A DNA stretch of 64,000 nt from Isoetes taiwanensis (lineage: Eukaryota > Streptophyta > Lycopodiopsida > Isoetales > Isoetaceae): the NCBI GenBank assembly GCA_021234155.1, contig JAJEKV010000182.1:310605-374604 (forward strand), written 5' to 3'. Shown piece by piece: positions 2,621 through 62,544 of the stretch. The notes under the pieces were generated by a model. It worked only from the letters and a program-made list of their open reading frames with translations. It searched no databases and was not told where the DNA came from. Both the position numbers and the translations under genes were made by a program. The stretch's first letter is position 1, and each line of letters opens with the position of its first letter.

Positions 2621-2899
2621 AGAGGTTTTAACGAAGCCTTCATAGATGCTGTCTCCTCCTCCTTCTTGCATTCAACCTCTCTTTTATTTCCTTCCCTTCC
2701 CCAAGCCTACCTTACTGCTAGTTGATGCATTGAGCTCATACCATTTTCAAACGACAAAGGTTTTGACGCTTTCATCGATGGTATCTCCACCAAAATGCCT
2801 TTTGAGTAATTACTTCATCGTTAAAATGGCAAGTGGTTATCAAAATTTTTACTCTTCCCATTGATCTTCAATCCCTATTGTATTACGTGCAACCACCTC

Positions 2900-4350
2900 G
2901 TTCCTAATGAGGTATGCATTTTTCCCCCCTCCTTCTAATTTTCATATTTCTTGAAGTGCTACTTCTTTCCTTTCTCTTTGTTAATGGATTGTTAAGTCCT
3001 TGTTTAGCCAAATTTGATGCCCTTTCAAATGGCTACAATGCTTCTTTATTTTGTCTCTTGCTCTAAGCTGTGGAATTATAAAGGATCAATTTATTCTTAT
3101 CATCAATCCTTTTACCAATCCATCTACTATAAGAATGTACCTCAAAAAAACTAGCATCTGGTTTATAATGTGTAAAAACTAGAACAATCCACAAAAGATA
3201 CAAGCTTATGCATCCATAAAGAATAAAAAATACGCAGGTTTAGCAAAAATAGATAAACTAAATTACAGAATCCCATTACCTCTCATAACCCTTCTTTCTC
3301 GTTTCCAGATAGTTAGTCTTTTCTAAACTGTCCTTTTGCTTCCCAGATGGTCTGGATGTTGAATCATCTCCTTCACTTTTTTTTTTAATCCTTCTCCCCA
3401 ATTCGCTCATTAAAGCAACCAAAACGTCTTCAGGCACACTACCAAGAAACTGGACTCTTCATCTTTTTCCTTTTCAGAACCGCTTGGAGACATTGGAGCG
3501 CAAAACAAAAAAATTGAATGAGAAAATGCTGAATGTGAGAAACTGCTACATCAACTGTGAATTGAATGCAAAATCCTAAAATAGAAAGTTTTGAACAACC
3601 ATTTCGAAATACTTACTGATGGCGATTGTGGGGGTGGGGAATGAAATGCAAATGGAGATGAGCAGGTTTTTAACTTCGTCATTCAAGCTTCAAGAATCAA
3701 CAATCTAGGCTGTAAGGTCGCTCTTTTTTCCATATCATTTCCTCTCAAGCCTATAATTCTCCTTTGTTCTCCCCATGCTTCCTTTTCTTGCCTTTCAAAT
3801 TCATAGAATATTTGTGTAGCCCTTCCCCCCCGGTTGTTTTTTACAACTACAATACTATTTCTTACAATTTCATAACTCTTCTTTGTTTGGGGATGTAAGG
3901 CAATTATAACTTATTATATTATTTTTTAGCCCTTCATATGGTAAGAAATGACATTTTGTTTTATGTGATAAGGCCATTGCCTTAAATGTAAATTTTCTTT
4001 TCATCGTCATTTAGTATCTTTCTCAAAAGTCATCATTGTCGCCGCTTTCATCTCAATAACTAAATAAAACGAGCTAGAAGAGACTAAAGTAAAGCTTTCT
4101 ATCTCCATCGAGGCAGTTGTTGATGGAACAAATGTAAAGGCAAGTCTAGCCGTTCCTACCGCATTCGTCAAGAAATTTTTACGCTTCCTTTTTTGCTCTA
4201 CCTTTTCCTCCACTTCATAATGTCTATTTTAAAATATATTTTTCAAGCTACAACTATTTCTTTTGCAATTGTACAATATATTACTACGGCTCAAGAAGAA
4301 TACATTATGTAAAGGTATTATAAGATGTTATTATTGTATGGCATAGCCTA
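2900..4350. other. AT-rich DNA without a recognisable gene
   Basis: Reads as AT-rich, pyrimidine-tract-rich DNA. Short frames exist, for example 4007-4213 on the minus strand, but none shows a domain. No repeat partner was found elsewhere in the window. Confidence 0.45.
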
Positions 4351-6285
4351 GACGCCCCCGGTCCATAATGATGCCCCATCATATAAATACGGGAAATCTC
4401 CATGGCGAATCCATCACCACGGAAAGGTCTCCTCCTGTTCGACTCTAATTCACTTTGTGATGGCTAAGGTTCCGGTGAAGGACACCCGGAGGTGTCATTC
4501 GTCCCATGCCTTCTATGGAATCCCATACCGGAAGTGTACATACATGTTAGCACCTTCCAGCAACAATATTTCAATAAGTAATATACCACCATCTATGGTG
4601 GCCCATCCATCATCACGCGAAAGATATCACATCCATAACAACATGAAATGACACCATAACCGTGCATCACCCCTCGCTCGCATCTAAGGTTGAGATCAAC
4701 TAATCCGCTGTGGCCTCAAGATAACAGCCATTTAAGTATAACATGGCGCTATCGGCATAAGACAATGGCTAGGTTGTTCACTCCATCCGGGCCTCATGTG
4801 CAATACACTTTGCAGATAGGGTCAGACCATGCTATGATCGTCGAGTCTCCCAGACGAATCCCAAGGAATCACCCTTCGACTACCCGTTACATCTCCCCTG
4901 GTCCGATGGGGCGTATCGAGGCGCCTCCTTCCGAAAGCATGACGATCCCCTGGTAAGTAGAGAACACGCGTGTCGCGACGTCGGGAATCTCGCGATCCCC
5001 CGCATTCCTCACTCTTACTCCCTAACCTAAAGGTCAGCTCACTCAACCCGCTCGAGCCCAAGATCTACCATCTATGACTCACGCCCGCCCAGAGAGTGTC
5101 GTGACCCATACCCGCCCACACACAATGACGGCAGGTCTAGGGCACACCATAGGAGTCCCCGCAGGCCGCCGCTTAGGCGTGTGACCCCACCCCCCATTCA
5201 CCTTCATACTGCTTGTCCGGGTGGGGTCAACCACATCATGCATCCACAACCAGTTGGCTCTTGTGCAATGTGCCGCATTTACCGGGTTTTAAGGGTTCTA
5301 TCTAGGAGCATCTCTACTTCTAGATGGCTCTAGGTCTCTACCCCCTTTTACCCATACATCACGAGGAACAGAAAGAAAGCTATCCTTATACATCCATCCA
5401 TCCATAGCTTCAATAGAACATAAAATAGAGATTAACCATACATCTATTCATACAAGGGGTTAACCTAGCTACCTTTTAGAGCATACAAGGGTTAGTCCTA
5501 TGACTATCTAGGGAATCCAAGCTATCTTAATGTACTCAACCGGATCATAGCTAGGCCCACTATCTAAGCCCTGCTCATCCTTCCTATTGGAACATGGTGG
5601 AACAAAGAAATTCTCCTCCACCACCCCTCCCCTAATTCAATTAAATGGGGGTACAAAACCCAATTTGGGTTCCAAGTTAGTAACTCTCCCTTGCCCACCG
5701 ACGGGGCTGTGGCACTGCCAGTATTAACTACACTTCCTGATATTTAGCCCTTTTAATATTAGGGTTTCCTCAATTAGGGGTTTAACGCTAGGTTTCCACT
5801 TTAATAATTACACTATTAACATAGCTAACCTTAGTTTATGAATAATTAATGTGCCATTAATTATTCATAGTGATCGTCATGTATTTTATACTTAAAAATG
5901 CTAAGATACCGCCCGAAATATCACAGCTCGGATCACGATAATGACCCGGGCCTCGTAGGATTTTTTGTGGCACCCTTTTTTTGGGATCCTGATCAGTGTA
6001 GTCTGCCATATCAAGGCTTATGGTACTACAAGAAACAAATCCATAGGATTAGAAGCATAATATTTATGATTGAATGTTAGGAATCTTGTGTCTGGGATAA
6101 CACTACAAGAGGATGGGGATATATTGTCAACCCTTGTGTCAAGACATATGGATAGTGGCAGCTTTGCGACTAAGGCTACTTTCTTGACAAAGTAATTCCA
6201 TTGGATCAAACTTGTGTCATGGAGTGTCAAATATTTTATCAAAGCAATGACATTTTCTTGACAACTTTATGTGCATTTTTACAAC
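4351..6285. repeat. 1.9 kb direct repeat, copy 1 (putative LTR)
   Basis: Aligns with 11400-13319 in the same orientation. Shared landmarks include 'TGAAGGACACC' near 4480/11510, 'CTAGGAGCATCTCTACTTCT' near 5302/12338, 'AACATAAAATAGAGATTAAC' near 5416/12451, and 'GGAATCTTGTGT' near 6080/13103. The copies differ by many small indels and by larger lost blocks. Two co-oriented copies flanking about 5.1 kb suggest LTRs of an old Ty3-type element. However, I do not see clean TG..CA ends, a primer-binding site at 6286, or target-site duplications, so a segmental duplication is also possible. Confidence 0.6.
5838..5868. repeat. Perfect 13-bp hairpin
   Basis: ATGAATAATTAAT and its exact reverse complement ATTAATTATTCAT flank a 5-base loop GTGCC. 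The left arm is disrupted in the second copy of the large repeat near 12870, so the hairpin is not conserved between copies. Confidence 0.6.
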
Positions 6286-9200
6286 GAGTAAGAAGAGCAC
6301 GTAGCCACGTGGATACGCTTAATGACCTTGGTCAAATGCATGACCATTATGCATGGTATAAATTAGGGAAATGGACACACCGGATAAATCAAGCCGAGCA
6401 TCGAGATGTCAATAGAAGACTAGGACAACAGTGTGTGGAACGAAGCCCATACAAGGTCAAGAGAGTCGCAGGGTCGAACTAACGCATAGGAATAAGACTT
6501 CAGAAGACTGCCGGAATGGAAGATGCAATTGGTAGCGTATGCGCAACCGCCCCAAAGCTACAAAGTATGTTGAGCTTTGTCAAAGCTAGACTATGAAGGA
6601 AGTTGACCAACTAATAATACACTAAGGAGGCAGTAATGCAACCACAAAGGCCAAGGTTCGACAAGAGTGGGTACTTGAAAGTTGCTGTGCTCAACGCCTC
6701 AAATATAGGGACTTGGGACTGACACTTTGGAATAGACCAAAGCCTACAAGGTAGGTGCCCAATGAACATCTCACCAGGAGAATGTGCTTTGGACTTGGTA
6801 TCGTGTGTGTATCCCGAGGAGTAGCTCCGCTGGTATACGCGCATTATGGTTACTGTAATGGTAAAACATAACCAGAAAAGGATAGGATGTATACTAGAAC
6901 TTTTAGTTCACATTCCATATGAATACCTTAAGTAATGAAGATAAGAGTTCTTAAACTAGACGCTAAAGATGTCCACTAGGAACTTAGGGTGCAGACCGCC
7001 TCATGGAATTTGCTGGTGGACTAGAGCTGAGGATCATAGCAAATCCAAGGCTGAGCCTAGAAGGTGTGGTGTGTCAAACCACAACATATGTATAGTACAA
7101 GCAAACCAAGTTGAGGAAATACAATTATGGGAAGTATAAACATAGCTATAGGGTGGCTATGTCAACGAAGTTACATATGAGGGTAGACGTAGGGTTGCGC
7201 ACATACCATATCACATAATTACACGACAGGAAATGGTGGATGTTGGAAGGACTTAGTAGTATCAAATACTACACCAGTGAGGATATCAAGGATCGAACAG
7301 GACATTCGTGATGTATGTCAGTATCAGAAGATGGTAGAATATCTCAGACAAGGCGAAAGTGAACATTACCTAACAAGGTTTAAAGAATCAGCATAACGAC
7401 ATGCCTATATACAAAGATATTGGGATTAAGTATACTCTTACTGTAGATAAGCATCTCACGCTTTCTATCCCAATGGTTGGAGTTGACTATCTAGATACGC
7501 CGCATTGGCGATATGGAAAGAGTTTAAATCGCTGAAGTAGCGCTAGAGTAAGTCTAGCATATACCATGATGTTACATTCAAAAGCATGCCGAGGATGATT
7601 GAATCCGTTGAATAAATCCGCAAGAATGAGAGCTTAACTACTAAAGGTTCTAAATACCAATGAATCATTTCAGCGCTATAAGTCATGGTGCATGTATTCT
7701 GGGCTTTAACAAAAAGATGTATCAACATCGCATCCCCATGGAAGAAAAGAAGGAGTATAATGAAGGACTTTGGCGATTATACCCTTAGGATAAAATGCAG
7801 AAGAGGGCAACATAGGAATTCCAAGTCCCGACAAAAATCAAGACGGTAGGGTATAGATTTGAAGGTGAGATTATATGCACTGCAAGAGTCCATAGATCCT
7901 AAGATACCCTACCTAGGAACAATTCTAGATACCTAAGTAGAAGCCGGAGGACTCACCTTAAGGCATATACCCCTTATAGATTATGCAAAATTTTAAGACT
8001 AGGCTGAACATAGGTTTTCCCACTATGAGATCAAGATTTTAATGCCTCCATCTCATTATGAGGGAGTCAAAGACTACAACATTTGAAGTTAATCGTAACT
8101 GAAGTTCACAATATAACTCAGAGAAATCGGTTAATTGTGACTAAGCATGGTTGATATTGAGGGACACAAAGGGTCCTTAGCTTAAAGAAGCCTCAGAAAA
8201 GCCGCCGTGCGGGATAGTGCACGCCTCGAATTATGGCATAATCCCCGGGGATTATACTTTATGTATCGCGGGTTAAAAGCACCTTGGCACCAAAATAACG
8301 TAAGTTAAAATAAATTTTAGAGACCCTCTATCAAAATATAGGTAGTATATGGCCAAGTCCAACATAGAGTTGGCCCCCGTCCGTTTCAGGTGCAGGGTAT
8401 GCAGCCACATCATAAAGTACATAGACAATGGGTTCCGCTTGAAAGAACTACCAAGGTTACACCTTAGCTAAGCTAGAACAGGTGAGCTCTTAGCATTGTG
8501 GGATGAGGATATATGTTGATTATGTACATACTGCGTACACATACCGATAAACCCTTGGAGAGGTAATCTAAGGGCTTTGGCTAATAAGAGAAAGACGAAA
8601 GTGTACCCAAAGTTACCAAATGCTGGTCCGGAGATATGTTCCCGAAATGCCAGTTGACCGCCAACTGCTGCATGCTAGGGTATGATGCCAAGGCTGGCAC
8701 GCGGAAATAAAATGTTAACGGCCCATAGAATGAAACTTAAGATTATTGAGTGGAAGTAATACAATAGCTAATAGCGCTACTTTTGCTAGAAGTCCAAATG
8801 TGTCGTAGCATCGACATCAGCAAGACTAGCTTTCCCACATGATCCATACCCAATCAAAGTAGGTGAATGCCATGGGTTACATGGAGGTGTAAATTAGAAC
8901 ATACGTGGTTCGAACATGGCTACAAGCCCTAAGTTATATCAAATACCTGGTGGTGATTGTTGAAGACTCACAAAAATACCGTGCACCTTGGTGACTCCGT
9001 GTAACTTCACGATTTATAATGGCTAGTTCAATCGCTGGACTTAGGGTCCATAACTCGATTAGATGAGGACTGAATCATTTGAATGCCACAACAATGGCAT
9101 AACGTCATGACAAGGAAACGTAATGACTAACATTTCTAGGATGTAGATAATATTGAATCATAACCCCAATGATAGGTGGGTTAACATCATAGGGACCTCA

Positions 9201-10410
9201 TAATAGCCAGCTTAGAAGCCACAAGACTAAGCAACTAAGACGAAGGGAGTAAAATGGACTGGTGAGTTCCTAAAGATTTGGTACATGGCTTAGGAAGAAG
9301 GGCTTCCATGTCCTAGAACAACAAGGTGAATTGAATTCACCAAGAACCCTTGTTTTTTTTATAGATAGATAGATAGTTAAATAGTATCTATAATGCCTGC
9401 CACATCGGGTAGCCCATGAGGACATATGATCTGACCCCGCAGACTCTGGAACACAAGAGCTCTTAGTAGAGGAGGCTCATCTTGAGAGGTCTTTTGGGTG
9501 GCACTGCCCTTTGGGACATTCACATAATCCCTTGGAATATGTAAGTTCATTTGCTAATCCTATGACTCCATTAGGCATCTAAAATAATGGTTGAAATACT
9601 TCGGCCCAACCATATCTAGATATCTTAGAAGGAGGTGATTAGTTAACAATCTGTGAAGAACCCCAAAAGAGGGTAGGTCAATAATTTTGGACAGGCCAAG
9701 TGGCGCAGATAATTAATCACTTACCCATATGCATGCGTGAAGTTTGAACAAATACCAAAGTTTGTACCCTGGGATTAATTAAAATAACGCGTCACATTGT
9801 TGTGGGGGTTCTAACACAAGCACTTCACTACGTGTTACGCAGTATGTGTGCATCATGATCTCGGGGAAGTGATCCATAAAAGGAACACACGAAGGAATGA
9901 GAAGAAATATCGAAGGCGAGGATAAAGAAATCCAAACCCATGGTCTAGAAGGTGCTGTCAGATGGCAGCCCTAATTGGTTGGACAAAAAGAGATTCTTTT
10001 CCGAAAATGAGACCAGTCAAGGCTGAGACACTAGAGAGAGAAACAACGCACTATAAATCATATCTATAAATATTACTTAACCCTTAATATATAACGGCCA
10101 AGTAAGGTCTATTATGAAGCATATGAATGTAGTATAGATCACTATGGCAAGGCCCGGCGACTTTGTCAGCCAAGGCATCTACCAAAGGAAAAAAAATATT
10201 AAAGCTATAGGCCGAGGAATGTCGATAATCGACATTATTATCGCCGCCTAAAAAAATAATATCCAAGGTGAATGGTGGATTAACCAACTTGAAGTTTCTA
10301 TCTTACCCGGCGAATTTCTTTCCATCGCCGGCCGCGGAACGCTTGTTCCATGGTTATGTAAACATTCCGCCAGTTGATAATAATAACCCTAAGTTATCTT
10401 TAGCTCAATC

Positions 10411-10725
10411 GCGGTTGCAATGTCCGGGCGGGCTGTTGCCACCGCGAGCGCTATTTAGGGAAGAGTAATGGTAGACAGAAGTCCTCCTAGAGAAACACAG
10501 ATACTATTGGTTAAGTATGACACGAGACTATTGTAACCACTAAAAGGAGGTTTACCGTGTTGGTAAAGTGGTTGCACAAGTCCGGCGGGGTTGTTGCCAC
10601 CGCAGCGTTGGTTTAGGGAAGAGTAATGGTAGACATGAGTCCTTCTAGAGAAACAGAGATATTATTGGTTAAGTATGACACGAGACTATTGTAACCACAA
10701 AAGGAGGTTTATCGTGTTGGTAAAG
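10411..10725. repeat. Two-copy tandem repeat, period about 157 bp
   Basis: Unit 1 (10411-10567) and unit 2 (10568-10725) share 'TTGTTGCCACCGC', 'TTTAGGGAAGAGTAATGGTA' and 'TTAAGTATGACACGAGACTA', and each ends in AAAGGAGGTTTA(C/T)CGTGTTGGTAAAG. Divergence is low compared with the surrounding sequence. The last 30 bases of each unit look like a tRNA A-box region, so the repeat probably grew from a SINE-like sequence. Confidence 0.75.
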
Positions 10726-10766
10726 CGTTTGGCTGGGTGCTGGGGGGTCAAGGGTTCAAGACGCCA
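10714..10766 (+). ncRNA. tRNA-like SINE head 1 (A and B box)
   Basis: 'GTGTTGGTAAAGC' resembles a Pol III A box, and 'GGGTTCAAGACGCC' fits the B-box consensus GGTTCRANNCC. They are spaced about 38 bases apart, as in tRNA genes. The sequence does not fold into a full tRNA by eye, so I call it a SINE-type promoter head and not a tRNA gene. Confidence 0.4.
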
Positions 10767-10838
10767 TAGTACCTTTTTATATGAAAGTTGCTATGCAGAG
10801 AAACAGGGTACTACATATATAGATGTAACATATATAGA

Positions 10839-10945
10839 GGGTTTGGTGTGGTGGTAAGCACCTAGGCTTGGATTTGAGAGGTCATGGTTTCAAATCTGGG
10901 TCAAGGCGTTGAAAAATAGGTATACGAAAAAAATATAAAACTTTT
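10839..10945 (+). ncRNA. tRNA-like SINE head 2 (A and B box)
   Basis: 'TTTGGTGTGGTGGTAAGC' matches an A box and 'GGTTTCAAATCTGG' a degenerate B box about 35 bases later. An A-rich stretch with AAAAAAATATAAAAC follows near 10925. It lies about 120 bases after SINE head 1, in the same orientation. Likely a SINE or a tRNA-derived remnant. Confidence 0.4.
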
Positions 10946-11399
10946 ATACCTGGGCTGGAATACATGGCGAGTATGGAGCGGCACAAGCCCCAAGAGACGC
11001 GTTTATCTCGCATCCGAGCTTAATTAAACACGGTTTGCCCTTGCTCGACCTTCGATGTCATTGACGACTTCTAGGGTATTTGGAGTATGCCCGACTCATT
11101 GAGCGCAATCTCGGCCGGATCCGAAATATGTGAAGAAAAGTTATAACGACTACAAAACTCTCGTGACTTTTGCCCACATCCCGAATCTTAGCCACCCGGC
11201 ACTATGGAACACATCGCCATTAACTAGGGTCATTCTCCGTAACTATGTCAACTAAGATGCTAATTACGAGTTGGGAGTTCCAAGTATCCTAGAAGAATTC
11301 ACCGTCAACTAACGAGTTAGGTTATGGCCGTTGCAACAATTCTTAGTCCACCAAAATCATCGCCCGATACCACCGCGGACGCTTCCTCCCAATCCATAC

Positions 11400-13319
11400 G
11401 ACGCCCCTATCAGAGCAAATACCTTTAAATTCCTCCCATGTATGAATCCATCACTACCTTAAAGGTCTGTCCGACTCTCGGACCACTTGTGATGGCCAAG
11501 GCCCCAGTGAAGGACACCTGAGGTGTCATTCGGCCCCACTTCTCTCTATGGGAATCCCTATATAGCTGAAGGCACATACATGTTAGCACCTAGCAACAAT
11601 ACTAATAAGTAATATACCACCACAAAGGGGTACCCATCCATCATCATCAACACAAAGATAATACATCCATAATAAAGATGAAATGACACCATAAGCGTGC
11701 ACTACCCCGTGCTCGACTCTAAGGGGATCAACCGACGTATTCCCCAAGATAACAGCAAGTACGTAAGTATAACATGGCTAATGCACATAAGACAATGGCT
11801 AGGGTTGTCCACTCCATCCTACCTCCCCGCGGCACACCCCTGCGATAGGTCGTAATCATTATGATCGCTTGTAGCCTCCCGAGACGCTAATCCCAAGGAA
11901 TCACCCTCGGGGTTACTCCTAAGTTATATCTCCCTGGGCCCGATGGGGCAGGCCGTGAGAGGCGCTCTCCTTCCCGAAAAGGACGGATCCGGTGTTAGAG
12001 AACACGTGTGTCGTGACGGGCCACCCCCGTGATCCTGCACTGACTTACTCTAAATCACCCAAAGGTCAGCTCACCAACCCGTTTCCCAGCCTGTGATCGG
12101 CCATCTATGACTCCACACGCCTCTCCCACGTAGCATGTCAAACCCATTCTACTTCCCACACACATTGACCTAGCTATAAGTCTAGCACACTATAGGGAGT
12201 CCCGTAGCTGGCCAGGCAGGACCCCACCCCTCATTCACCACTATGACCCTGGTAGCCGAACTTCATTATCATAGCATCCACACAAATGTGCTGGCTCTGT
12301 GCACAGCCGCGACGCATCGGGGTTTAAGGGTTCTATCTAGGAGCATCTCTACTTCTAGATGGCCTTTAGGTCTCCTACCCCTACCCATGGCCATCACGAG
12401 GAACGTGAAAGAAAGCTATCCTTATACATCCATCCATCCATAGCTTCAATAGAACATAAAATAGAGATTAACCATACATCTATTCATACAAGGGTTAACC
12501 TAGCTACCTTTAGAGCATACAAGGGAGCAGTCCTATGACTATCTAGGAATCCAAGCTATCTAATGTACTAACCGATCATAGCTAGGCCCACTATCGCTGC
12601 TCCCCATCCTTCCTGCCAACATGGTGGAACAGCCAGCCCTCCCTCCACCACCCTCCCTAATTCAAATTGGGGCAATGGGGGTACAAAACCCCAATTTGAT
12701 CCCAAGTTAGTAACTCTCCCTTGCCCAATCGGGATTTGGGGCCAGGCAGCCTGGGTTGGCTACTATTAACTAATTTGATATTTTAGCCCTTTTTAATATT
12801 AGGTTAAGCCCTAAATTCGAATTAGGGTTTAAGGTTAGGTTTCCACTTTAATAATTAATTATTAACATAGCTAATGTGCCATTAATTATTCATAGTGACG
12901 TGCATGTATTTATATTTAAAAAGGCGTATAAATACCTGGAACGTCACAGTTCTGGACTGCTGATATGAATTCAGTTCAGAGCGATTTTTTGTGGCACCCT
13001 TTTTTTGGGATCCTGATCAGCGTAGTCTGCCATATCAAGGCTTATGGTACTGCAAGAAACAAATCCATAGGACTAGAAGTATAGTATTTATGATTGAATG
13101 TTAGGAATCTTGTGTGTGGGATAACACTACAAGAGGATGGGGATATATTGTCAACCCTTGTGTCAAGACATATGGATAGTGATAAATGGCGACCAATGCC
13201 ACTTTCGACAAAAGCAATTCCATTGGATCAAACTTGTGTCATGGAGTGTCAAATATTTTATCAAAGCAATGACATTTTCTTGACAAGTTTATATTCCACT
13301 TTATGTGCATTTTTACAAC
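11400..13319. repeat. 1.9 kb direct repeat, copy 2 (putative LTR)
   Basis: Partner of 4351-6285. Homology ends abruptly at 'TTTTTACAAC' near 13319, matching the end of copy 1 at 6285. A 12-base block, ATTCCACTTTAT-like, near 13292 is absent from copy 1. The start contains 'CTATCAGAGC' at about 11407, which resembles the core of a tRNA-Met primer-binding site but sits at the wrong end for this repeat to be a 3' LTR. Its significance is unclear. Confidence 0.6.
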
Positions 13320-14049
13320 AACTTCTAAACAATGGTGTACTCAAGTTGTGACAATGTTTTCTTAAGGCTTAAAACATCATTCAATATTATAACTAATACC
13401 TCAATCGAATTGTGTTGAACATTCATACATTGTTATCATACAGCTTTTATCTAATTTGAGATAGTTTTAAATCAATTTTGAATCGATCCCATAGGAATAA
13501 TGAGGAATATTAATAATTATAGATATCAAATAACTTATGTCATAGGAATAAGAGCAATAGCGTTAACAATACTAACTAATGCTATGTAAATGCATCAATT
13601 TGTCGACACGGATCATGTTGAATGCCTTCCTTTCATCTCTTCAATGTAATCCTTGTATCTACATTTAACGCCGACATGAATCGCATGGAGACGGAAAGTA
13701 ACATAATTTTCCTTATCAATCTCTACACTTCTGTGAACTAATCAATGGTGGTGGATTCTAGAGGAACTCGTATGTCGATATCATCTTCAAAGAGCAAACC
13801 ACCTTCAAGATAACCACCTCCTATATGCACAATCTTGCCCTTCACTATCGAGAAGCAACTTCCACATATATTCTCGCATCATGCACAATGGCTCACCATC
13901 ACTCCCTCACCTCACCATCACCATCCTCTATATTAGTTTCAGACACAGACAACCAATTACATCGCTTCGCCCTTGGTTGACAATGTACAACAATCCACCA
14001 TTTTCGTGGTCATTAGGATTTTCATGACAAATATCTCCTCAAGGATTAT
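13320..14049. other. Unassigned intergenic sequence
   Basis: Follows the right-hand large repeat. I see no long frame, RNA gene or repeat partner. Confidence 0.4.
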
Positions 14050-15425
14050 GATGTGGACTCCTAGCTTACACACCGCCAGACATGTAACGACATCTCGATG
14101 CTCGACATATTCTCGCTAAGCGACCGATAGCGCGCCAACCCTCGCCAAGACTAAGGTGGTTTTCTATATCATCTTCACGTACCGAGGGTTCCTCCTTCAG
14201 CTACTAAGGCCGTAATGTGGAAGTTGCATCCACATACAAGTATTTGGGAGGAGTTTCTTCACTATGACCGGGACACATCCATACGACTACGCAGTGACTA
14301 CAGGTTGAAGGCACTATATGCAATGCAAAACAATAGTCATAGAGCTGAGTCAGTATGATTGGGCCCATCACCACACTGCTCAAGGTCTTGTGAGAGCCCC
14401 CATTCCTTTTATACCTGGTGGAAGCATAGCCCTCCGTGAGGTATCACTTGCTACTTGGAATGACTCTTGGAGTAGGTCCGCAAAGCTCTCTTAGCACGAG
14501 CACCCGTGGGTAGCTTCCATGTACCCATATCAAATTCTCTACCAAGTAGGAGACGATTCTTGCCCTTCTCGTGAGGGCTGCCCGGTTCACTCTTTCGCAT
14601 GGGTAATCACTATGGACTTATGCCTGCCTCCCTAAACTAGCTTATATCATCATGGTAATGGGCCGCAGTCACCAAGGCCTCATTGAGGGGAAAAGAGAGC
14701 TCAATGGTTGGATAGATGGAATGTGCAGAGCACAGTGCATAAATGTGCAAACAGAGGCAGATCGCCATAGCTTGAGGTAATATCTTGACGCTTGCTTCTC
14801 AAAGAAGCTTTGGGATGCCAATCTGAACATGTCAAGACAGCACACTATCACCGCCACATAAATCCCACATTGAACGCAGGCCCGCAATGCTACCGCTGCA
14901 TCTTACTCTGCCCATGAAAAGGCAGACTCATTGCCTCCATTCCCGCATCAGGGGCGCATCATCTTCGAATTGAGATCTGCGATGGATTGGTGAGCCACGC
15001 CAGACAAAGCTCGGCTATCGCCGCTTAAATGGAAGTCATTGAGGGATGAATTCATACCCTTCCAAAGTTGCTCAAAGATATGATCAAATTCGGACGCCGC
15101 TTGGCGCCGAAGCTGGTCGTGCCCGCTAGCCGCTACATGTGACATCGGGCAATGCGATCCGTACGTGCTGGATCATACTCTTCGAGGGTTATGGACATGC
15201 GAGACGCCTATGTCCCTGCACACACTTCGACATGTATATATACATTGATGTATACTTGTATAGCTTTGACAAAGATTCTTACATCGCCACGTGTTTTTCC
15301 TCAAAACCCTTTCAAGTGTGGGTTTTTAACCCGACAAGAATAAGTTTGTCGGGCATTCTTTGTGGTCCCATAGCCCATTGGCTCAGTGGACGCATAAAAA
15401 ATCATTCTCATTCTCATCTTCAACT
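14050..15425 (+). mobile_element. LINE-like 3' end, copy B
   Basis: Parallel to 51000-52050, for example 'CGACATCTCGATGCTC' at 14090 against 'TGCCATCTCGATGCTC' at 51034, and the 'AAGAGAGCTC' blocks at 14693 and 51532. It is also parallel to copy A at 200-985. The 3' end has 'GGTTTTTAACCCG', then 'GGTCCCATAGCCCATTGGCT', 'CAGTGGACGCATAAAAAATC' and ATTCTCATTCTCATC. Frames are broken throughout. It is a decayed non-LTR element with no surviving domain I can name. Confidence 0.55.
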
Positions 15426-18400
15426 TGACTTGGAATAACAAATGATTCTTTCATCTCAAGCAATACCTTTGAAGAATTCCACTGAAATCCCCGATGGATG
15501 TCTCTAAGTGTCACAACCTTTGTATATAACTTGAACCAACAAGTGCTCTCAAGACATTCACATAGCTATGATAGTCCAATTCAATGATATACGCAGGTTC
15601 CAACATAGTCAAGATTACTTTCCAAAAAGGGCCTCGCTGCTAGATTGACTTTTTGTTCAAGTTGTAGATAATGCCGACCTAATATAACACTATGTTTGTC
15701 AATACCGCTAATGCGTATGGTGTCCTATATGCCCACATTGAAGTATAAAATTGCTTCTAATATGAATAAAACCTTATTATATATAAAATGTCAGGAAATA
15801 AACTTTAGCATCAAGATTTCATAATTACTGCATCTTCCTATTGCAGCCATGGTAATCTCCTAATCATCATCTAATATCACTTCGTCTATTCCATCTTTAG
15901 CTTCATCCATACAAGCCAACAACCATGTGTGTTATCAATAACATCCGGCAAAAATAGACTGTCCTAATGGCCTATCTTCTTTAGCAGCATCATATAAGTC
16001 CCTCCACATGGTTGTGTTTGCGTTGTTATTAATGACAAATGTGCTTATAAAGATGAAGCATGTCATCACTAAGGTTTCGCTCTCTAACATTGCCTTGTAA
16101 TACTCTCGGGCGGATTCCCTTGTTCTCCCTTTTCCTCCCATAATTTAGACCATCAGGATGGCATGCAGTGGCATCATTTAGATAAAAGCGCTCTCTCACA
16201 AGATGTCCTTCAGCCATGCAGCCCTCCTCGATTTTGCTATATTTACGCACTAAATCCTTTTGAGCACCTTCATATAACACTCTAGAAAACATCCATCCGC
16301 TAGAGCGGTGTCAAACCAACCTTATCCCATTTGGGATGTGTATTAACGATGTACATGTAGATGTAAATAGATTATTAATTGCACTTTAGAATAGCTACAA
16401 ATACACGTGCTTGCATAGAATATATTTAGATTCACCAAGTAGGGTCAAAAAAATTGTGAAAATTATTTTTCAATGTCACAGCAAAGAGGAACTATTTCCT
16501 CCTCCACATTTGATATCTCACCCACTTCAATTCTCTCTTTAAAACCACCCATCTTGCAAATTTACCAATCGAGATGTTCACTTGGCTCAAAGTCCCCTAT
16601 CACACCTGTAGTATATACGAACGTCTAAGAAGTATAATTAAATATGTTGTAATATAAATTTATCAAAAGAAATGAGAGTATAAGAATCAAAAAGTATACT
16701 TGAAGAAACTTCACAACGCGCGACTTAATCCCACAGCTACCTTGTTTTGTAATGCCTTTCGCGAAAGAGGCTCCACATCCAGCTTAAAGCGACCTTTGCT
16801 ATTCCTTCTGTTCACTTCAACAAGTTGCTTCTTCCCTAAAACCCATGAACCATGTTTCCATGTTAAGGTTTTCCCCTCGCTTCTTCTCTCGAGTAGGCCA
16901 ATATTTGTTTTTTAATTTTATGCTCTTTTCGTGATCCATTCTAGCAGCCAAAGTTTTCCCATTCTCTTTGTTAAATGACGCCAAAGGGAATTTCGACTGA
17001 AATTTTGAAGATGTGCATTGGATCAAGTGAATGAACCAACTCCAAGTCAATCCAATATCCCAACCTATAAAATATAGATAATCTCTCTTCATTCCAAGAG
17101 GAAGTTCACATTTTGTCATAACTTGTGAGGTAATTCACATGGGATTCATCTCCTACCAAGCATCCAACCAATCTCTGGTAGTCCATCGCTTATTTTGGTG
17201 TCTCAATCGCACCCACATGCATGATGACCACAAATATTCTTATGTCCAATATATATTTGTTTCTTTCTCGCATGTTTTGACTTATAAGATCTAATGGGTC
17301 TCGACAAGTTGGGCATCCACATGCACTACTCTGTTTGTAGTCCCAAGAAAAGGAGAATACAAAGCAAACTTCAACATTACCCATAATTTTATTAACACAA
17401 GTACATTCATACCGTAAGCTTTAGAAAGATTCGATTGGTACGTGAAGAGGAACTAATAATATTCCATAAAATATAAAGTCATGTGGACTTTAGATATGTC
17501 ATATGGTCCACCATAAAATCTCAAGTTCCTCCACTAAAAGTTCTAGGTGAAGGCCCATATTCTTTCAATTTTATATTTCTAAATATTCCATTTCATGCTT
17601 CAATCCAAAGGTATCCTAATCCATGCTCAATACATATAGTATATTCCAAACCCTTCCCAAAACCACTTATAATTGTCACAAAGCCAAGATGATCTAGAAA
17701 AAGCACATTGGGAAACCTTTTCTAACAAAGGCCAGCAAAAAGCATATACCAAGTTCTCAAGACGTGATACTACTTGCACTATACTCATGTATGTATTACG
17801 TGTGTAAATATGTATAATCGGACCGTAAGGGGCCGGGACCAATACATTACTTGTTGAATTTTGCACCTTTTTTAGATCATGGACGCACCACCGCCATCAT
17901 TAATAGCTCAAGCATAACATTTGCACATAAAAGGAAGTAAAAAAAAAGCGCTTAGTTGGAGATTTGATCGATTTAGGCATGAACAATAATAATTTAATAG
18001 TTTCTATTGCTCAAGTTCATTTTATATGGCTTTTTTGCTGAAACCTAAAACCTAAGTGGTCATTGGGCGAGGATGGTCTCTAATTGTTGCCCTCCAAAAA
18101 AATCTACACCATCTATGGCCGCTAAAACAATTTCTGAACCAAACCAATGGCCCAATGACTAACAAATAGATCAAGGCGATGAGGAAGCCTACGTCCCGGC
18201 CATCCAAGACAAGGAAACAAAAAGCAAAAAAATAAGAAGAATTAAATCAAACATTATTCTCTTGTTCGCGATGAATATAATGTTGTCCCACATCCCAAAC
18301 AAATCTACCTTCATCTCTAGCCATACTGGGGTCTAGCAACAAAAACAAAGGAACAACTAAACCATCTTAACAACGCACACCAAGAAACAATAAGAGCCAT

Positions 18401-56955: not shown

Positions 56956-58490
56956 CTTAAATCCCTATCAAAATTGTGAATGTCTGAATCATCTCTCTAG
57001 CCGCTCCAGGATGGTATGCTTCAAAATAGATTTTGCCAGATAATAGAGTTGTAATTATTGAAGGGAAAGGGCAGTTCAACTATGAATTTGCATCTAAACA
57101 ATTTGACAAATCCTTGCGCTTCGTTTCAGAAAGAAGTGACACATGGCCAAACAACTTGTATCCCTCCTTGCATCCTTCTTCGGATGGAAATCTTTTCATC
57201 TCCAGTCGAATTCTACTTCTTCACAGCCTACGATGGCAATCCCTAAACCCAACAAGAGAAGGGGCTGGAGAATGCAGCTCCCTACGGTGCCAATTTTAGC
57301 AAATGGAAAGAATGCATGAAGGCAGCAGGAAAGTATCACGAGGACGCGATTTCTCGTTGCTAGCTTGTGATCTAGACACTTGAGAAATACATAGGCAAGT
57401 AGTGATTATTATGGCATTATTTTGTGAGCCGATCTGCTATGGATCAACAAGCTCAAAAAGCGGTTGTTGCTGCTGCTAGTTCTGGTGCTAATTCTGAGTC
57501 CGCACGGCAAAAAGCCTCTAAATTGTTCCAAAAGGAAGAGGACTCAATTCAAGCAGATGGAAATGCTGATGAGAAATTATAGCAAGCAGAGGAGAGCACC
57601 ACCTCTTGAGAGCACCCTACGGTGATGTAAAATTACGCTAAGATTTTTATCAATTGCACATGCTCTGAAGTTTGCAACGTAGTTCTGGGTATGTCTTTTC
57701 TCTTCCTTCTGAAGAGTAGTTTTGGTTGAGTAAGAATTTTTGTAGGTAGCTTATTCATCATGAAAATAGTAAAACCAATGCATTTTATACTTTTGAACTT
57801 CAAAATTGAATACATTTATAATTATACCCGAAATGGGCCTCATGAAAAAATCTAGAAACTTTTGGTTGAGAAAAATTTTATTGAAAAAAATAAGATATCT
57901 TTATGCGTTTTAACTATGGTATGAAATATATATAAATATAAAACCTTAAAATAGAGACAGCCTTTTTAATTTTTAGCGTAGAACTTTTGAAGATGGGGCA
58001 GATGAGGCAGCCAGATGGGGCATCCAGTGGAGAAACAACAGGGGTAGATGGGGCAGGATCTTAAAGGGTTGAAAACGGAATTAGTGAGAAAGAGAACTGT
58101 CCAATTTCGAAAGTATCCTTTTTCATCTTCAATTGTGGAGCCTCTAAGGTTGAATTCCTCAAATGTGATGTTTCGCAGCCAGAACCCCTTCCAAATTGGC
58201 TATACTCCTACTCTCAAAGTCTAGCGAACATGATTAGACATGGAGGCTGGAAAGAGGACATTGAAGATATGATCTTTGCCTCAATAACCAATACTGGTGC
58301 TAGTATCTTTGAGGCTCAAACTGAGACAGGCTTTAAATTGCATTTATAGGTTGAGACCTATAAATTTCCCCGCGTCTCTACCTCTGCCTAGGCTACAGAC
58401 CTTGTGCTCATTGGCTTCACTATCGCCTCAAGATGTTGTTGCCGAATCCTATCACTACAGGACTATTGGTGCTTCAGCTGGACCCGTTTC

Positions 58491-58569
58491 AAGCACCGTT
58501 TGTTGTAGCATAGCATGGATCAGTAGTTCCAAGACCATTTGTTGCAGTATAGCACAGATCAGCAGCCCC
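58491..58569 (+). repeat. Two-copy 39-40 bp minisatellite
   Basis: 58491-58530 and 58531-58569 share 'TTTGTTG(T/C)AG(C/T)ATAGCA' and 'GATCAG(T/C)AG'. They lie inside a 122-codon plus frame (58297-58665) that has no recognisable domain. Confidence 0.65.
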
Positions 58570-59658
58570 AAGGTCGTGATTACATTAGAAGGAGTGAGAG
58601 CTACTCCGAATCCATGGAGACCCCAAGAGCACGTGGAAGTTCCTTCGAGCAGGTATTTGGAGTAGCTTTCTAGGTAGATCATCTGGAAGTTACGATTCCA
58701 GATGAGCTAGTACCTTGTATTTCTAGTAGAGACCTCTTAGAACCCTCAGTTCAGATCTTGAACTCTAATCAATGAACCCTAACTGTAAGTTCGATGCATG
58801 TGACTAGGATTAGATGTTATTCTCATTATTTATCATGTTATGTGGATATATGATGTTGGTTGATCATGTTTGCACCCCTTGTGTTGGGAAAGGGGATAGA
58901 GACTTAGTAGCCTTGTGAAGATGATGCTTCTAGTTTAAATCCTTTAGTCCTTATTATATTGCGGCATGTGCATAGAGCCCACGAGGCTATGAAGGTTGGC
59001 GGAGGACAGAGACCATGCCAACGGGACAAAAGTAAGATTAGAGGAGTCCCCGGCCGAAAATTTACCGGGACTTCGAGCTATTGTGTGGGCTGGGTATGGG
59101 TCTGACACTTCCTGGGTCGATGCTATCGCCCTAACCCTCAGGAGTTGCAGATGTTGGCCTGGCTCTTGTTTAGGGGAGTTCAGTCGGGTAAGGATGTGTG
59201 TCGCCATGTTCCTCTAGCCGCCTATCGAGTCATTATCTCCCCAGAGGAAGATGCAACCCTTCCTACCTCATCGGACCGGGCAGATGCAACCTAGAGTAGC
59301 CTTGTTGGGTGATACTAAGGCATTACATCTCCGGCAGGTTATAGTCATGACATAGCCTGTTTTAGCCCATCTGCAAAGTATACATAAGAGGGCTTTTTGA
59401 TGGAGTATTCGCTAACCCTAGTTGGTTCATAGCGAAGCCCCGCTTATTGTTATAGTATTCCGGTTCCAAGCTCTATCTTGAGACTCGTGACGCCGCCTAC
59501 TTTCCTTATGAGTCTGAGCCTGGGTAGGAGCTTATATATTTTATGATACTTTCAAACACCATTTTAGCCCCTTTTCCCCTAATTTTGCCCTAAACTCTCT
59601 CTTTCTAGGCCTAAGGTGATCTCCAGCTTAAGTTAATTAGTTTCCCTGACTGTAAGAC

Positions 59659-60728
59659 ATGGCATGCACCAAATGTATTGCGAGGAAAGTTAGGAGCCCC
59701 GGGAAGAGGCCCAAAGATGGCGTGAGCTAGCCACTCGAGCTGCAAGAAGATCCCTGAGCACCTAAAGCGAAGCTGTATGCAGGGCAAAGGTCGACTCACG
59801 ATGAGACCTACCACACCACGAACAAGCGAGTCCCAAGCAGCTCGTCTCGGCGGGGCTCACACTCGGGAAATGGGGGCCCCAAGAGCAGCAAAGCAGCAGA
59901 AGAAACCAGCAAGAGTAGCAGTAAGGAAGGGCCTCAAGGAAGGGGAAGGAGAAGGTGGGAGAATGGGAGGAAGAAAGAAAGAGAGAAAAAGAAGAGAGAG
60001 GCAACGGGAGAGAAGGACAGGTCGCCAGGAACTGCCATGTTGAATATCCTCGCCCAACATCACCCGACTCGGCGGAGGAGGAGGAGGAGGAGGACCAAGA
60101 TAAAGAGGAGGCCGAAAAAGGAGCCAAAGAAGAGGAGCAAGAAGGAGAAGTGGAGGAGACCTCATACCCTAATGCCAGACTGCCTTACCCAAAGTGGTCC
60201 AAGTCACCGAAGGTGACAAAGACGCAGAAGGTGGGGGAGAGACCTTTCAAGCTCAAGCAAGATCTTGAGTTTGAAAGAAAGAAGGTGGCCTTTAAGGTCT
60301 ACTTCAAGCGATGCACGAGGTACAACAACTGGTATTACAAGCAAAACGTCCAGAAGTCCGTCAAGGGTAGCAGACTAAGGAATCAATCAAAGCCCCCTCC
60401 ACCTCGGCCAAAGGAACCAAAGAGGGTCCACCACGAACCCAACTCGAAGCACGCAAGGGTCTTCCAGGAGATCAAGCATTTTTAGCAATGCACTAACCTC
60501 CTGATCCGGAAGGCACCCTTTGAACGACTGCTCTGAGAAATCATGCAAGACTTCAGGATGGACTACCAGGTGATACCCTTGACAGTCTGGTCCTTGCCGG
60601 AGGCAGCCAAAGCAGTGCTAGTGCAACTCTTCGAGGAGGGCAACCTATGCGCAATACATGTCAAAAGAGTTACAGTGATTTCCAAGGATTTGCACCTACC
60701 ACGCAGGGTCAGAAAGGATAAGATCTAG
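59659..60728 (+). pseudogene. Histone H3-like gene with a long insert between tail and fold, broken
   Basis: ATG at 59659 opens 'MACTKCIARKVRS', then GKRPK, matching the H3 start MARTKQTARKS..GKAPRK. A one-base shift then gives 'ELATRAARRSLST', matching QLATKAARKSAPAT. About 630 bases follow with charged low-complexity sequence, including a (GGA)n/Glu run at 60073-60093. From about 60410 the frame rejoins H3: 'RVHHEPNSKHARVFQEIKHF', stop, 'QCTNLLIRKAPFERLL', stop, '[10 protein letters not shown]', '[20 protein letters not shown]', '[20 protein letters not shown]'. This covers alpha-N to alpha-3 of the histone fold. Loop 1 has canonical H3 length, but 'TNLLI..APF' resembles CENH3. There are no introns. 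In-frame stops fall at 60483 (TAG) and 60534 (TGA) plus several in the insert. A captured or retro-copied H3 variant, now dead. Confidence 0.75.
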
Positions 60729-60804: not shown

Positions 60805-61109
60805 CAAAAAAGTCAAAATTTAGGTCAAATCCTGTTTCCCGTCAAACCGCACCAAATGCATTTCCAAGAGTTTCGGAAACGCCATTCGCGCGATGTGACC
60901 GGATTTGCCTATAAAGTTGCTTTGGATGAACATATTTTTAGGAAGTAAAGTGCTAAATAGACTAATTTTGATTAAATAACTTAATTTAGCAACTTACATT
61001 CGTCAAATCGACTATCTTTTGGCCAAAAGAAGTCAATTTCCAGTCACACCATGCCAAACATGTTTTCAAGGGTCTCAAAAAGGCCATTCGCGTGACATGA
61101 CCGGATTTG
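60805..61109 (+). repeat. Diverged direct repeat between the two pseudogenes
   Basis: 60805-60907 and 61025-61109 share 'AAGTCAA', 'GCCATTCGCG', '(T)GTGACCGGATTTG' against 'CATGACCGGATTTG' and a common 'CAA(A/C)(C/A)(C/G)..ACC...CAAA' middle. The spacing is about 220 bp. They may be subrepeats of an LTR or promoter region. Confidence 0.55.
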
Positions 61110-61283: not shown

Positions 61284-61291
61284 TATAAAAG
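61284..61291 (+). promoter_or_regulatory. TATA box
   Basis: TATAAAAG in 'GGCCTATAAAAGGGG', 112 bases before the ATG at 61403. This is an excellent TATA match at a suitable distance for a short 5' leader. Confidence 0.5.
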
Positions 61292-61402: not shown

Positions 61403-62376
61403 ATGGCACCTACCAACTTCATCGAATGGTACAACAACACCGACTACATCAGTGAGGTGCCAATCGAAGAGGGATTCCAGGTGTTCGATCATATCTTCGA
61501 ATCTTCAATGCTAAACATTGACGAACAATTTACTACAATCGACATCATATGCCATGATGATCTTACATCTTTTACCATGGTCCTACCCATGGAAGGGAAA
61601 TGGGTTTCCTTGGACGGGCTCACTCAGATGTTGGGCTAGACCTCTAAAATCAAGAAGCAGATCTTGGACAGGATAATAAATATGCTAGATTACATGAACT
61701 GCAAGGTCCACAGGCACAGGTACATCTCGTCTCAAGCGGCTCTCGCCATATTCATGCACTTCAAACCCATCAATAAGGTGGGAGAACCCTCCATACAACC
61801 ATTAGATCTAGCACCCTTGAACACGAGGGTGAATCAGAGCTTCATCCAAGAGCTCAATGCCACCGAATACATCTATAGGGTACGTCGTCCGACACATCTC
61901 AACTTGAAGGAGACTATGAAGAAGTAGAAGAGCAAGATGAAGAAGAGGAGAGCAGACTAGCAGAGAGGATGAAAAGGCAGCTTGAGAGGCACAATGAGGA
62001 CGTAAGAAGGGCCATAGACCCCCTAATAGGCATTATTGCCTTATCCCCAGTAGTCATCGAAGGGGAGGAGTACCTCTTCGCCTATATGATATCCTCCAGC
62101 TACTATACTGCTTGAAGGAAGAATTGAGAATTGACGAGCTCTTAGGGTTGATTGCAGAAAGAACAAAGAGACCAGGAGATTCCATGAGAGCCAACAGAAT
62201 GGCACTCATATGCCAAAGAGAAGATGTCGAATATGGCAGCATATGAGTGCATAAGGCAGATCTATCAGCAGCAACAACCAATCATTCAAGAAGAGGAATT
62301 CCAAGCAATCCAGAGCACCCTATACAAGTCAAGCAGAGTCCCACGCAGAGTCGCCCCGTCCGATCAAGTAGCATAA
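61403..62376 (+). pseudogene. Unidentified protein of about 325 residues, one stop and three frameshifts
   Basis: ATG at 61403 opens 'MAPTNFIEWYNNTDYISEVP'. The frame meets TAG at 61637, then continues with 'KIKKQILDRIINMLDYMNC' and 'SSQAALAIFMHFKPINKVGE'. Shifts near 61905, 62079 and 62218 keep a coding-like protein going: 'EGDYEEVEEQDEEEESRLAE', 'RAIDPLIGIIALSPVVIEGE', 'LKEELRIDELLGLIAERTKR', 'MAAYECIRQIYQQQQPIIQE', ending at TAA 62374-62376. Likely layout: an alpha/beta N-half, an acidic linker and a helical C-half. I know no matching family; a retroelement gag-like protein is possible. It is co-oriented with the H3-like frame, 675 bases downstream, behind its own TATA box. Confidence 0.55.
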
Positions 62377-62544
62377 AGGAGAGGACCCATGTCAACCTGG
62401 AGAGTGCACCATGCCGAGGATCCGTGGGATAGGTTCAATATCGCCGCATTATTTTATACCACACGATGAATTGTGGCGATAATGCACACAAATGCCGCGA
62501 TAAAACGCAGAAAAATACCTGCTAAAAATAATTCTATTGCCGAA

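Follow-up and report, generated by a model that had tools for sequence, protein, structure and literature searches.

Evidence for a captured histone H3 in the first protein of a Ty3/gypsy chromovirus family of Isoetes taiwanensis

The decayed H3-fusion gene in the window

We analysed a 64,000-base stretch of the Isoetes taiwanensis genome (assembly GCA_021234155.1, contig JAJEKV010000182.1, positions 310,605 to 374,604, forward strand), hereafter called the window. At 59659..60728 on its forward strand lies a decayed gene, open reading frame 1 (ORF1), recognised by Pfam and tblastn as an H3-fusion gene of the lineage called T1 below and interrupted by frameshifts and stops. We are nearly certain that its family is a Ty3/gypsy chromovirus with a captured canonical host H3 as the C-terminal part of the first protein. 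An earlier note, made from the letters alone, had described an H3-type start, a charged stretch and a nearly complete H3 fold, and all three were found at the places it gave. The ATG at 59659 opens MACTKCIARKVRS, and the H3-tail-like start MACTKCIARK (59659..59730, +) belongs to a frame that runs for 23 residues before it meets a stop; the corresponding start in intact copies reads MARTKQTARK, MARTKQTYRK or MARTKSTARV. A charged Glu/Lys/Arg insert follows (59731..60455, +); from about 60168 onward it corresponds to a basic/aromatic linker domain that intact copies conserve. The H3 histone fold runs from alpha N to the C-terminus (RVFQEIKHF..., 60456..60725, +). With stops written as X, the last 94 codons matched the Pfam Histone family (PF00125) with an E-value of 8.1e-18, and residues 6-91 of these 94 matched the H3 chains of solved nucleosomes with an E-value of 1.3e-24, far beyond chance. 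In tblastn, residues 184-369 of an intact ORF1 aligned with window 60168-60722 at 66% identity.

The frame at 59659-60728 is not open, a point absent from the earlier note. In-frame stops lie within the fold (TAG at 60483 and TGA at 60534) ahead of the natural stop TAG at 60726-60728, and the pieces of ORF1 are spread over three reading frames, with frameshifts upstream of the fold. This copy of ORF1 is dead. The string ELATRAARRS, which the earlier note had listed after the H3-type start, is indeed present at 59724-59753, where the family frame reads ...KKIPEHL (KKVPEHL in intact copies). It resembles QLATKAARKS at 7 of 10 positions, and its score of 38 against the H3 tail was reached by none of 300 shuffles. 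Among the 17 other T1 sequences tested (18 including the window), no out-of-frame match to the H3 tail exceeded the shuffles. Because the string lies outside the family frame and is alone among the 18 sequences, it was not counted as H3 tail; the likeness may be due to chance, or the string may be what is left of the original tail.

Upstream of ORF1, blastn revealed a remnant of a 5' long terminal repeat (LTR; 58484..59546, +), whose pieces align within positions 316-1361 of the LTR (1,639 bases) that a full copy carries. Missing from the window copy are both LTR ends, the primer site and some of the leader. In the related locus L013, the whole LTR was present at 2855-4393, and about 640 extra bases lay between the sites matching window 59548 and 59550. 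Downstream, a decayed second gene, ORF2 (61403..62448, +), was traced by tblastn in two overlapping pieces (61403-61876 at 50% and 61798-62448 at 41% identity), with its first stop at 61637. Queries for gag, for protease and reverse transcriptase (RT), and for RNase H, integrase and chromodomain gave zero tblastn matches in the window and the next 7,996 bases. A repeat search of the window returned no LTR pair, because the copy is truncated at both ends. The window copy is an old, truncated relic of a Ty3/gypsy chromovirus family that keeps only an LTR remnant, ORF1 and ORF2.

Full copies, lineages and constraint on the H3 fold

Two full copies, Y1060 (L024 and L025 joined) and Y908 (L022 and L023 joined), were read through and proved to be LTR retrotransposons of about 13.2 kb each. 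The order of parts was LTR, primer site, ORF1 (the H3 fusion), ORF2, gag, protease, RT/RNase H, integrase, chromodomain, polypurine tract and LTR. On Y1060, the Pfam matches to gag (PF03732), protease, RNase H, integrase and chromodomain followed the gypsy order, and the RT core was recognised by eye. The LTRs of Y1060 lie at 4462-6100 and 15964-17609. Its ORF1 (6673-7782) encodes 370 residues, starts with MARTKQTARK and ends in an H3 fold (Pfam E-value 5.3e-29), and its ORF2 is open for 509 residues from 8591. Intact ORF2 proteins that were read had 504-511 residues and no Pfam match above cut-offs. The earlier note had offered two alternatives, an H3 gene captured by a mobile element or an H3 variant with an exceptionally long tail, and had proposed a search for flanking terminal repeats. 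The repeats were found around both full copies; the captured gene lies within an LTR-flanked element that continues into gag-pol, and the exceptionally long stretch before the fold is seen in the element's own protein, so that both alternatives hold together.

The LTRs of Y1060 and Y908 begin and end with TGTGACG...CGTCACA, and their pairs differ by Kimura two-parameter distances of 0.022 and 0.038. A five-base target duplication, TCTTG, flanks Y908; none is clear in Y1060 (TCATG versus TATGT). Directly after the LTR, both copies carry the primer site TGGTATCAGAGC, which we take to be of the Met type. Both also carry GGGGGGGAGAA before the 3' LTR, and the polypurine tract of Y1060 reads AAGGGGGGGAGAA. 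The integrase end matches chromodomain proteins, the best being Chromo domain protein 1 (E-value 1.1e-6); by eye, it keeps the tryptophan of the HP1 aromatic cage and lacks the other two cage aromatics. Y908 is 91-93% identical to Y1060 in DNA. Its start MARTKQTYRK, at 6565, stands in a different frame from its fold, so Y908 is damaged.

To find further copies, the same genome (1,658,258,908 bases in 1,110 contigs) was searched, and among plant genomes the searches were confined to Isoetes taiwanensis. Three H3-type queries gave 9,462, 9,022 and 11,509 rough first-look candidates, ORF2 gave 7,771 and the chromodomain 17,945; for each of these queries the best 139-150 places were scored. A DNA search returned 54 matching pieces from the best 40 of 574 candidates. 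With the linker and fold of locus L004 as protein query, all 150 scored places (the best 150 of 9,462) matched, nearly all over query residues 1-157. Identity was 68-76% (99% for L004 itself), and many of these places had open frames of 360-436 residues, some with stops. The earlier note had asked for intact multi-copy versions, and many were thus found. Among the matches listed for a canonical H3 query, 15 host H3 genes (96-98% identity) were followed by 135 places at 71-86%, many of which had open frames above 400 residues. Fourteen of these 135 places were read. At the four host H3 loci that were read, the product is an ordinary H3 of 136 residues. The element is therefore an abundant family and not a single copy; the opposite case raised by the earlier note, one local H3 gene carrying an unrelated insertion, does not apply, as many copies share the same insert.

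ORF1 was linked to the other genes of the element. On the same strand, and among the places listed, ORF2 lay within 3 kb downstream of at least 47 of 150 ORF1 places and upstream of none. A chromodomain lay 4-12 kb downstream of at least 24 of the 150, in 22 cases at 6.6-7.5 kb, and upstream of 2. The opposite-strand controls gave 0 for ORF2 and 1 for the chromodomain, and at least 9 full triples of ORF1, ORF2 and chromodomain were counted. The fractions are lower bounds, because the lists compared hold 150 ORF1, 139 ORF2 and 150 chromodomain places.

At least two lineages of the H3-carrying element, T1 and T2, exist. The ORF1 proteins read comprised 22 of T1, 12 of T2 and 2 of T3, several of them without a start. 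L052 and L057 each represent a further type of which one copy was read. T1 proteins have an ARTK start in most copies with a start, an acidic and serine-rich stretch and a conserved linker that contains W..YN.WY. T2 proteins begin with MA[I/N]TK in 7 of the 9 copies with a start, followed by about 300 residues and then by KPHRFRPGTVALREIRKFQ...; the H3 part, residues 37-136, is thus preceded by about 300 residues of other sequence, for which Pfam gave no match above cut-offs. T2 also belongs to an element of this kind: the copy C1044 has LTR sequence upstream, and C1018 has gag, protease, integrase and LTR sequence downstream, without RT. The ORF2 proteins of T1 and T2 are related over their C-terminal half (BLASTP E-value 1e-11, hhalign E-value 6.4e-9). 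The ORF1 proteins aligned in hhalign only in the fold, and homology of the T1 insert with the T2 part before the fold was rejected because hhalign detected none.

The folds were compared with host H3 and with Arabidopsis CENH3. Identity to host H3 was 0.63-0.70 for T1 and 0.86-0.88 for T2, and identity to CENH3 was 0.49-0.54 and 0.55-0.56, respectively. In the fold tree, a check named in the earlier note, the element copies stood beside canonical host H3 and away from CENH3, with weak support (55-63). Since the element copies grouped together, weakly (60), a single H3 capture for T1 and T2 is possible.

To evaluate selection, dN/dS was calculated by the Nei-Gojobori method (NG86) and pooled; for the comparison of T1 and T2 regions, a pair was left out if it was saturated or if its dS was 0.02 or less. 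In T1, the pooled ratio was 0.226 for the acidic region (102 of 231 pairs), 0.117 for the linker (149 of 231) and 0.047 for the fold (117 of 231). In T2, it was 0.095 for the part before the linker (45 of 45 pairs), 0.279 for the linker (45 of 45) and 0.029 for the H3 part (44 of 45). For ORF2 the pooled ratio was 0.125 (28 of 28). The T1 and T2 copies had been chosen by protein similarity, a choice that favours low dN. The loci L001-L012 were retrieved by DNA instead, and 8 of the 12 had stops in the fold; their pooled fold ratio was 0.16 (58 usable of the 65 pairs sharing at least 50 codons, of 66). The low ratio even among these copies shows that the fold was constrained while the element spread; the H3 fold is under strong, long-lasting purifying selection. 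A comparison of Y1060 with Y908 yielded dN 0.010 and dS 0.160 for ORF1 starting at the linker, 0.025 and 0.085 for the integrase-chromodomain piece, and 0.187 and 0.276 for the RT-RNase H piece; we think that the last pair of values was inflated by broken frames in Y908.

The fold was recognised as H3 by PF00125, by H3 matches in the PDB and by the tree. Over 84 fold positions, the majority residue of T1 departed from that of host H3 at 26, none of which was among 18 positions of DNA side-chain and H3-H3' contact (Fisher P = 0.0005); a wider contact set comprised 24 positions. Residue 56 was Q (12) or M (10) in 22 of 22 T1 copies; T2 keeps K56 and changes S87F and V89I. The tail gave a different picture, as a canonical H3 tail with K4, K9, K27 and K36 contexts was not found in the element proteins. 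All 15 T1 copies that begin with MA keep K4, and 7 of the 15 keep K9, the K9 position reading V, N or G in some T1 copies. The K27 and K36 contexts, AARKSA and GGVKKPHR, were absent from all 36 element proteins read; a start is present in 15 of these from T1 and 9 from T2. Past residue 10, only L042 among the 15 T1 copies was more like the H3 tail than most shuffles (in-frame, 4/300). In both T1 and T2, what precedes the fold appears to have been altered, with the nucleosome core almost unchanged. The T2 linkers of L047 and L055 read VARKSGSQYKEKL, with an ARKS motif resembling the H3 K9/K27 context.

Possible role of ORF1 and known parallels

Retrotransposon silencing acts largely via H3 marks, and chromoviruses are thought to read chromatin by their chromodomain. 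The first protein of this element ends in an H3 that selection has kept nearly unchanged, which suggests that a mobile element produces its own version of a DNA-packaging protein. The most likely use of ORF1 is that of an H3 in nucleosomes, with a tail made by the element. ORF1 would pair with host H4, enter (H3-H4)2 tetramers and nucleosomes and thereby place the element-made tail in chromatin. Such a tail would be without the K27 and K36 contexts; K9 would be lost in some T1 proteins, and in T2 the tail would be about 300 residues of unrelated sequence. The likeliest benefit would be that chromatin on the element DNA or around its insertions could then not take the silencing marks of the H3 tail. 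A second use to consider would be the tethering of the element particle or integrase to chromatin. ORF1 probably works as a nucleosomal H3. The explanation as a whole seems to us somewhat better than evenly balanced. That anti-silencing is the main benefit to the element can be put forward only tentatively. Equally speculative is the broader idea that a retrotransposon supplies its own chromatin, by a very large number of insertions in this lycophyte that encode H3 proteins with rebuilt or swapped tails, so that nucleosomes on the element or at loading sites could not carry the usual silencing marks.

Several results weigh against a nucleosomal, mark-avoiding H3. In the wider contact set, 4 of 24 positions were changed in T1 versus 22 of 60 elsewhere (P = 0.06), a weak test. 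The T2 majority differed from host H3 at 11 of 84 fold positions and at 0 of 18 key contacts, again a weak result (P = 0.06), and in the wider set at 1 of 24 (P = 0.12, likewise weak). Single copies alter key residues: C110Y in L041, R83M in L040 and R72H in L031. T1 alters F84, Q85 and S86 in loop 1 and also S87-L90, a region read by H3 chaperones; T1 may therefore not be handled like H3. The string ARKS occurred in one T1 and two T2 copies, and together with the K9 of seven T1 copies it fits ill with a simple escape from K9 marking. Predicted structures were poor, with a mean predicted local distance difference test score (pLDDT) of 55 for T2 ORF1 and 39 for ORF2, and offered no usable new fold. 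The T2 model had low confidence in the fold region, and its PDB structure search returned only four nucleosome entries at E-values of 0.001 or less, with low template modelling (TM) scores, so the histone match rests on sequence.

Other explanations were considered against the same evidence. ORF1 could be a tether, whose histone fold sits in host nucleosomes while the insert or N-terminal part holds Gag or integrase and steers import and integration, maybe together with the chromodomain. Besides the fold, the T1 linker (0.117) and the T2 N-terminal part (0.095) are conserved, ORF1 lies 5' of gag, and the integrase end matches chromodomain proteins, as described above; the lack of detectable relation between the T1 and T2 parts before the fold speaks against it, and we regard a tether as unlikely. 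ORF1 might instead act inside the particle, condensing cDNA or RNA of the element in a histone-like manner. Charged linkers and retained DNA-contact residues would suit this, and Marseilleviridae histone doublets form nucleosomes in vitro, according to the accessible part of a review (PMC9145170). Pfam found no second histone in the ORF2, gag, protease and RNase H-integrase-chromodomain frames of Y1060. H3 without H4 is a poor packager, and we regard packaging as quite improbable.

The remaining explanations concern where ORF1 came from and whether the element uses it. TNLLI and APF in T1, which the earlier note had read as CENH3-like, and a T-P in T1 loop 1, which we take to resemble CENH3, would fit a captured CENH3 that directs the element to centromeres. 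The folds are nonetheless nearer to host H3: those of T2 and T3 are 0.85-0.89 identical to it, loop 1 has the canonical H3 length that the same note had seen, and for every copy in the tree set host H3 was nearer than either Arabidopsis CENH3 or human CENP-A, in a tree of weak support in which host CENH3 was not sought. A CENH3 origin was rejected on identity, tree and loop 1 length, and its probability is very low. Open frames and purifying selection could also be expected of a dispersed family of host H3-variant genes that adjoin retrotransposons by chance, yet ORF1 keeps a constant order and distance to ORF2 and the chromodomain on the same strand, LTRs flank two copies on both sides and the T1 and T2 ORF2 proteins are related. 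Flanking LTRs and linkage rule this explanation out, and we give it almost no weight. It is also highly improbable that ORF1 is a useless passenger, conserved only because the search chose protein-like copies: ORF1 copies were indeed chosen by protein similarity, but those retrieved by DNA still showed the low pooled ratio, and two diverged lineages both keep ORF1.

Plant chromoviruses of the Ty3/gypsy group have the same LTRs, primer site and order of gag, protease, RT, RNase H, integrase and chromodomain; the Isoetes element differs in its two extra forward genes between the 5' LTR and gag, one ending in H3. In a survey of 8,453 Ty3/gypsy elements from 80 species, the extra ORFs were heterogeneous, and the word histone occurred once in the accessible part of the text (PMC6317226). 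The bracovirus histone H4 (CpBV/CvBV-H4) offers a parallel, as a mobile agent has captured one core histone with an extended tail and a conserved fold, and this H4 joins host nucleosomes, as far as the accessible parts of two sources tell (PMC5423620, PMC9145170). It differs in being H4 and not H3, in its carrier, a wasp polydnavirus and not a retrotransposon, and in acting on a foreign host. In large DNA viruses, too, single H3 genes are captured H3-like singlets that probably enter host chromatin, according to the accessible part of PMC9145170, where the word retrotransposon does not occur; their carriers are DNA viruses, not retroelements. A narrow scan of viral contigs with two T1-specific peptide patterns gave 37 pattern stretches, none confirmed, and the plasmids searched gave no match. 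Orchid Ty3/gypsy elements with an N6-methyladenosine (m6A) demethylase domain represent the same kind of recent capture of a host regulatory domain (PMC9289625, in its accessible part), with an RNA demethylase where the Isoetes element has a histone. No retrotransposon with a histone came up among the papers listed in searches of published open-licence articles. The word histone is absent from the main text of a gene-capture review (PMC13317346), from an accessory-domain paper (PMC6338049) and from the accessible main text of the Isoetes taiwanensis genome paper (PMC8566536).

If the proposed role is true, the element would itself supply part of the nucleosome, a weapon not known before in the silencing conflict, and its lineages would form a natural experiment in possible replacements of the H3 tail. 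H3-like gene models in such genomes can be element proteins and not histone variants.

Putative expression signals and neighbouring sequences

TATA-like motifs were found upstream of both ORF1 and ORF2. In the window, TATAAAA (61284..61290, +) lies 119 bases upstream of the ORF2 start and may serve as a promoter. A TATA motif stood at -118 or -119 of ORF2 in all three T1 copies in which the ORF2 start was found (window, Y1060 and L013); that of Y908 was not found, so Y908 is outside this count. TTTAAATA occurred at -95 to -102 of ORF1, with the ATG as taken by the script, in three of five T1 copies (Y1060, Y908 and L017). It was not found before ORF1 in L014 or the window, where a TATATA at -126 is LTR sequence. 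The T2 copy C1044 showed only TTTAAAA, at -102 of ORF2, and no such motif before ORF1. ORF1 and ORF2 might therefore each have a message of their own. The ORF1-ORF2 spacer of the window also holds a pair of direct repeats (60835-60907 and 61037-61109, +), 73 bases each and 202 bases apart. Pairs of similar size and spacing were found in the same spacer of Y908, Y1060, L015 and L016, and such a pair is possibly a regulatory element.

Other insertions and neighbours were observed around these copies. C1044 (L064 and L065 joined) contains, at 8166-17327, an insertion of about 9.2 kb in the T2 element, with 284-base terminal direct repeats that are 99.6% identical and large minus-strand frames that by eye resemble a reverse transcriptase of a non-gypsy kind. 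The old element at L013 has two LTR copies in tandem (1291-2534 and 2855-4393) before ORF1, as if one element had inserted beside another or recombined with it. The flanks in L024 and L022 carry long minus-strand frames that by eye resemble long interspersed nuclear elements (LINEs) and adjoin both full copies. In the window, short fragments of the same LTR family lie on the reverse strand at 4754-4912, 5290-5370 and 11786-11952, and a match to the N-terminus of glyoxal oxidase (57009-57203, +, E-value 3.4e-15) lies about 1.3 kb before the LTR remnant.
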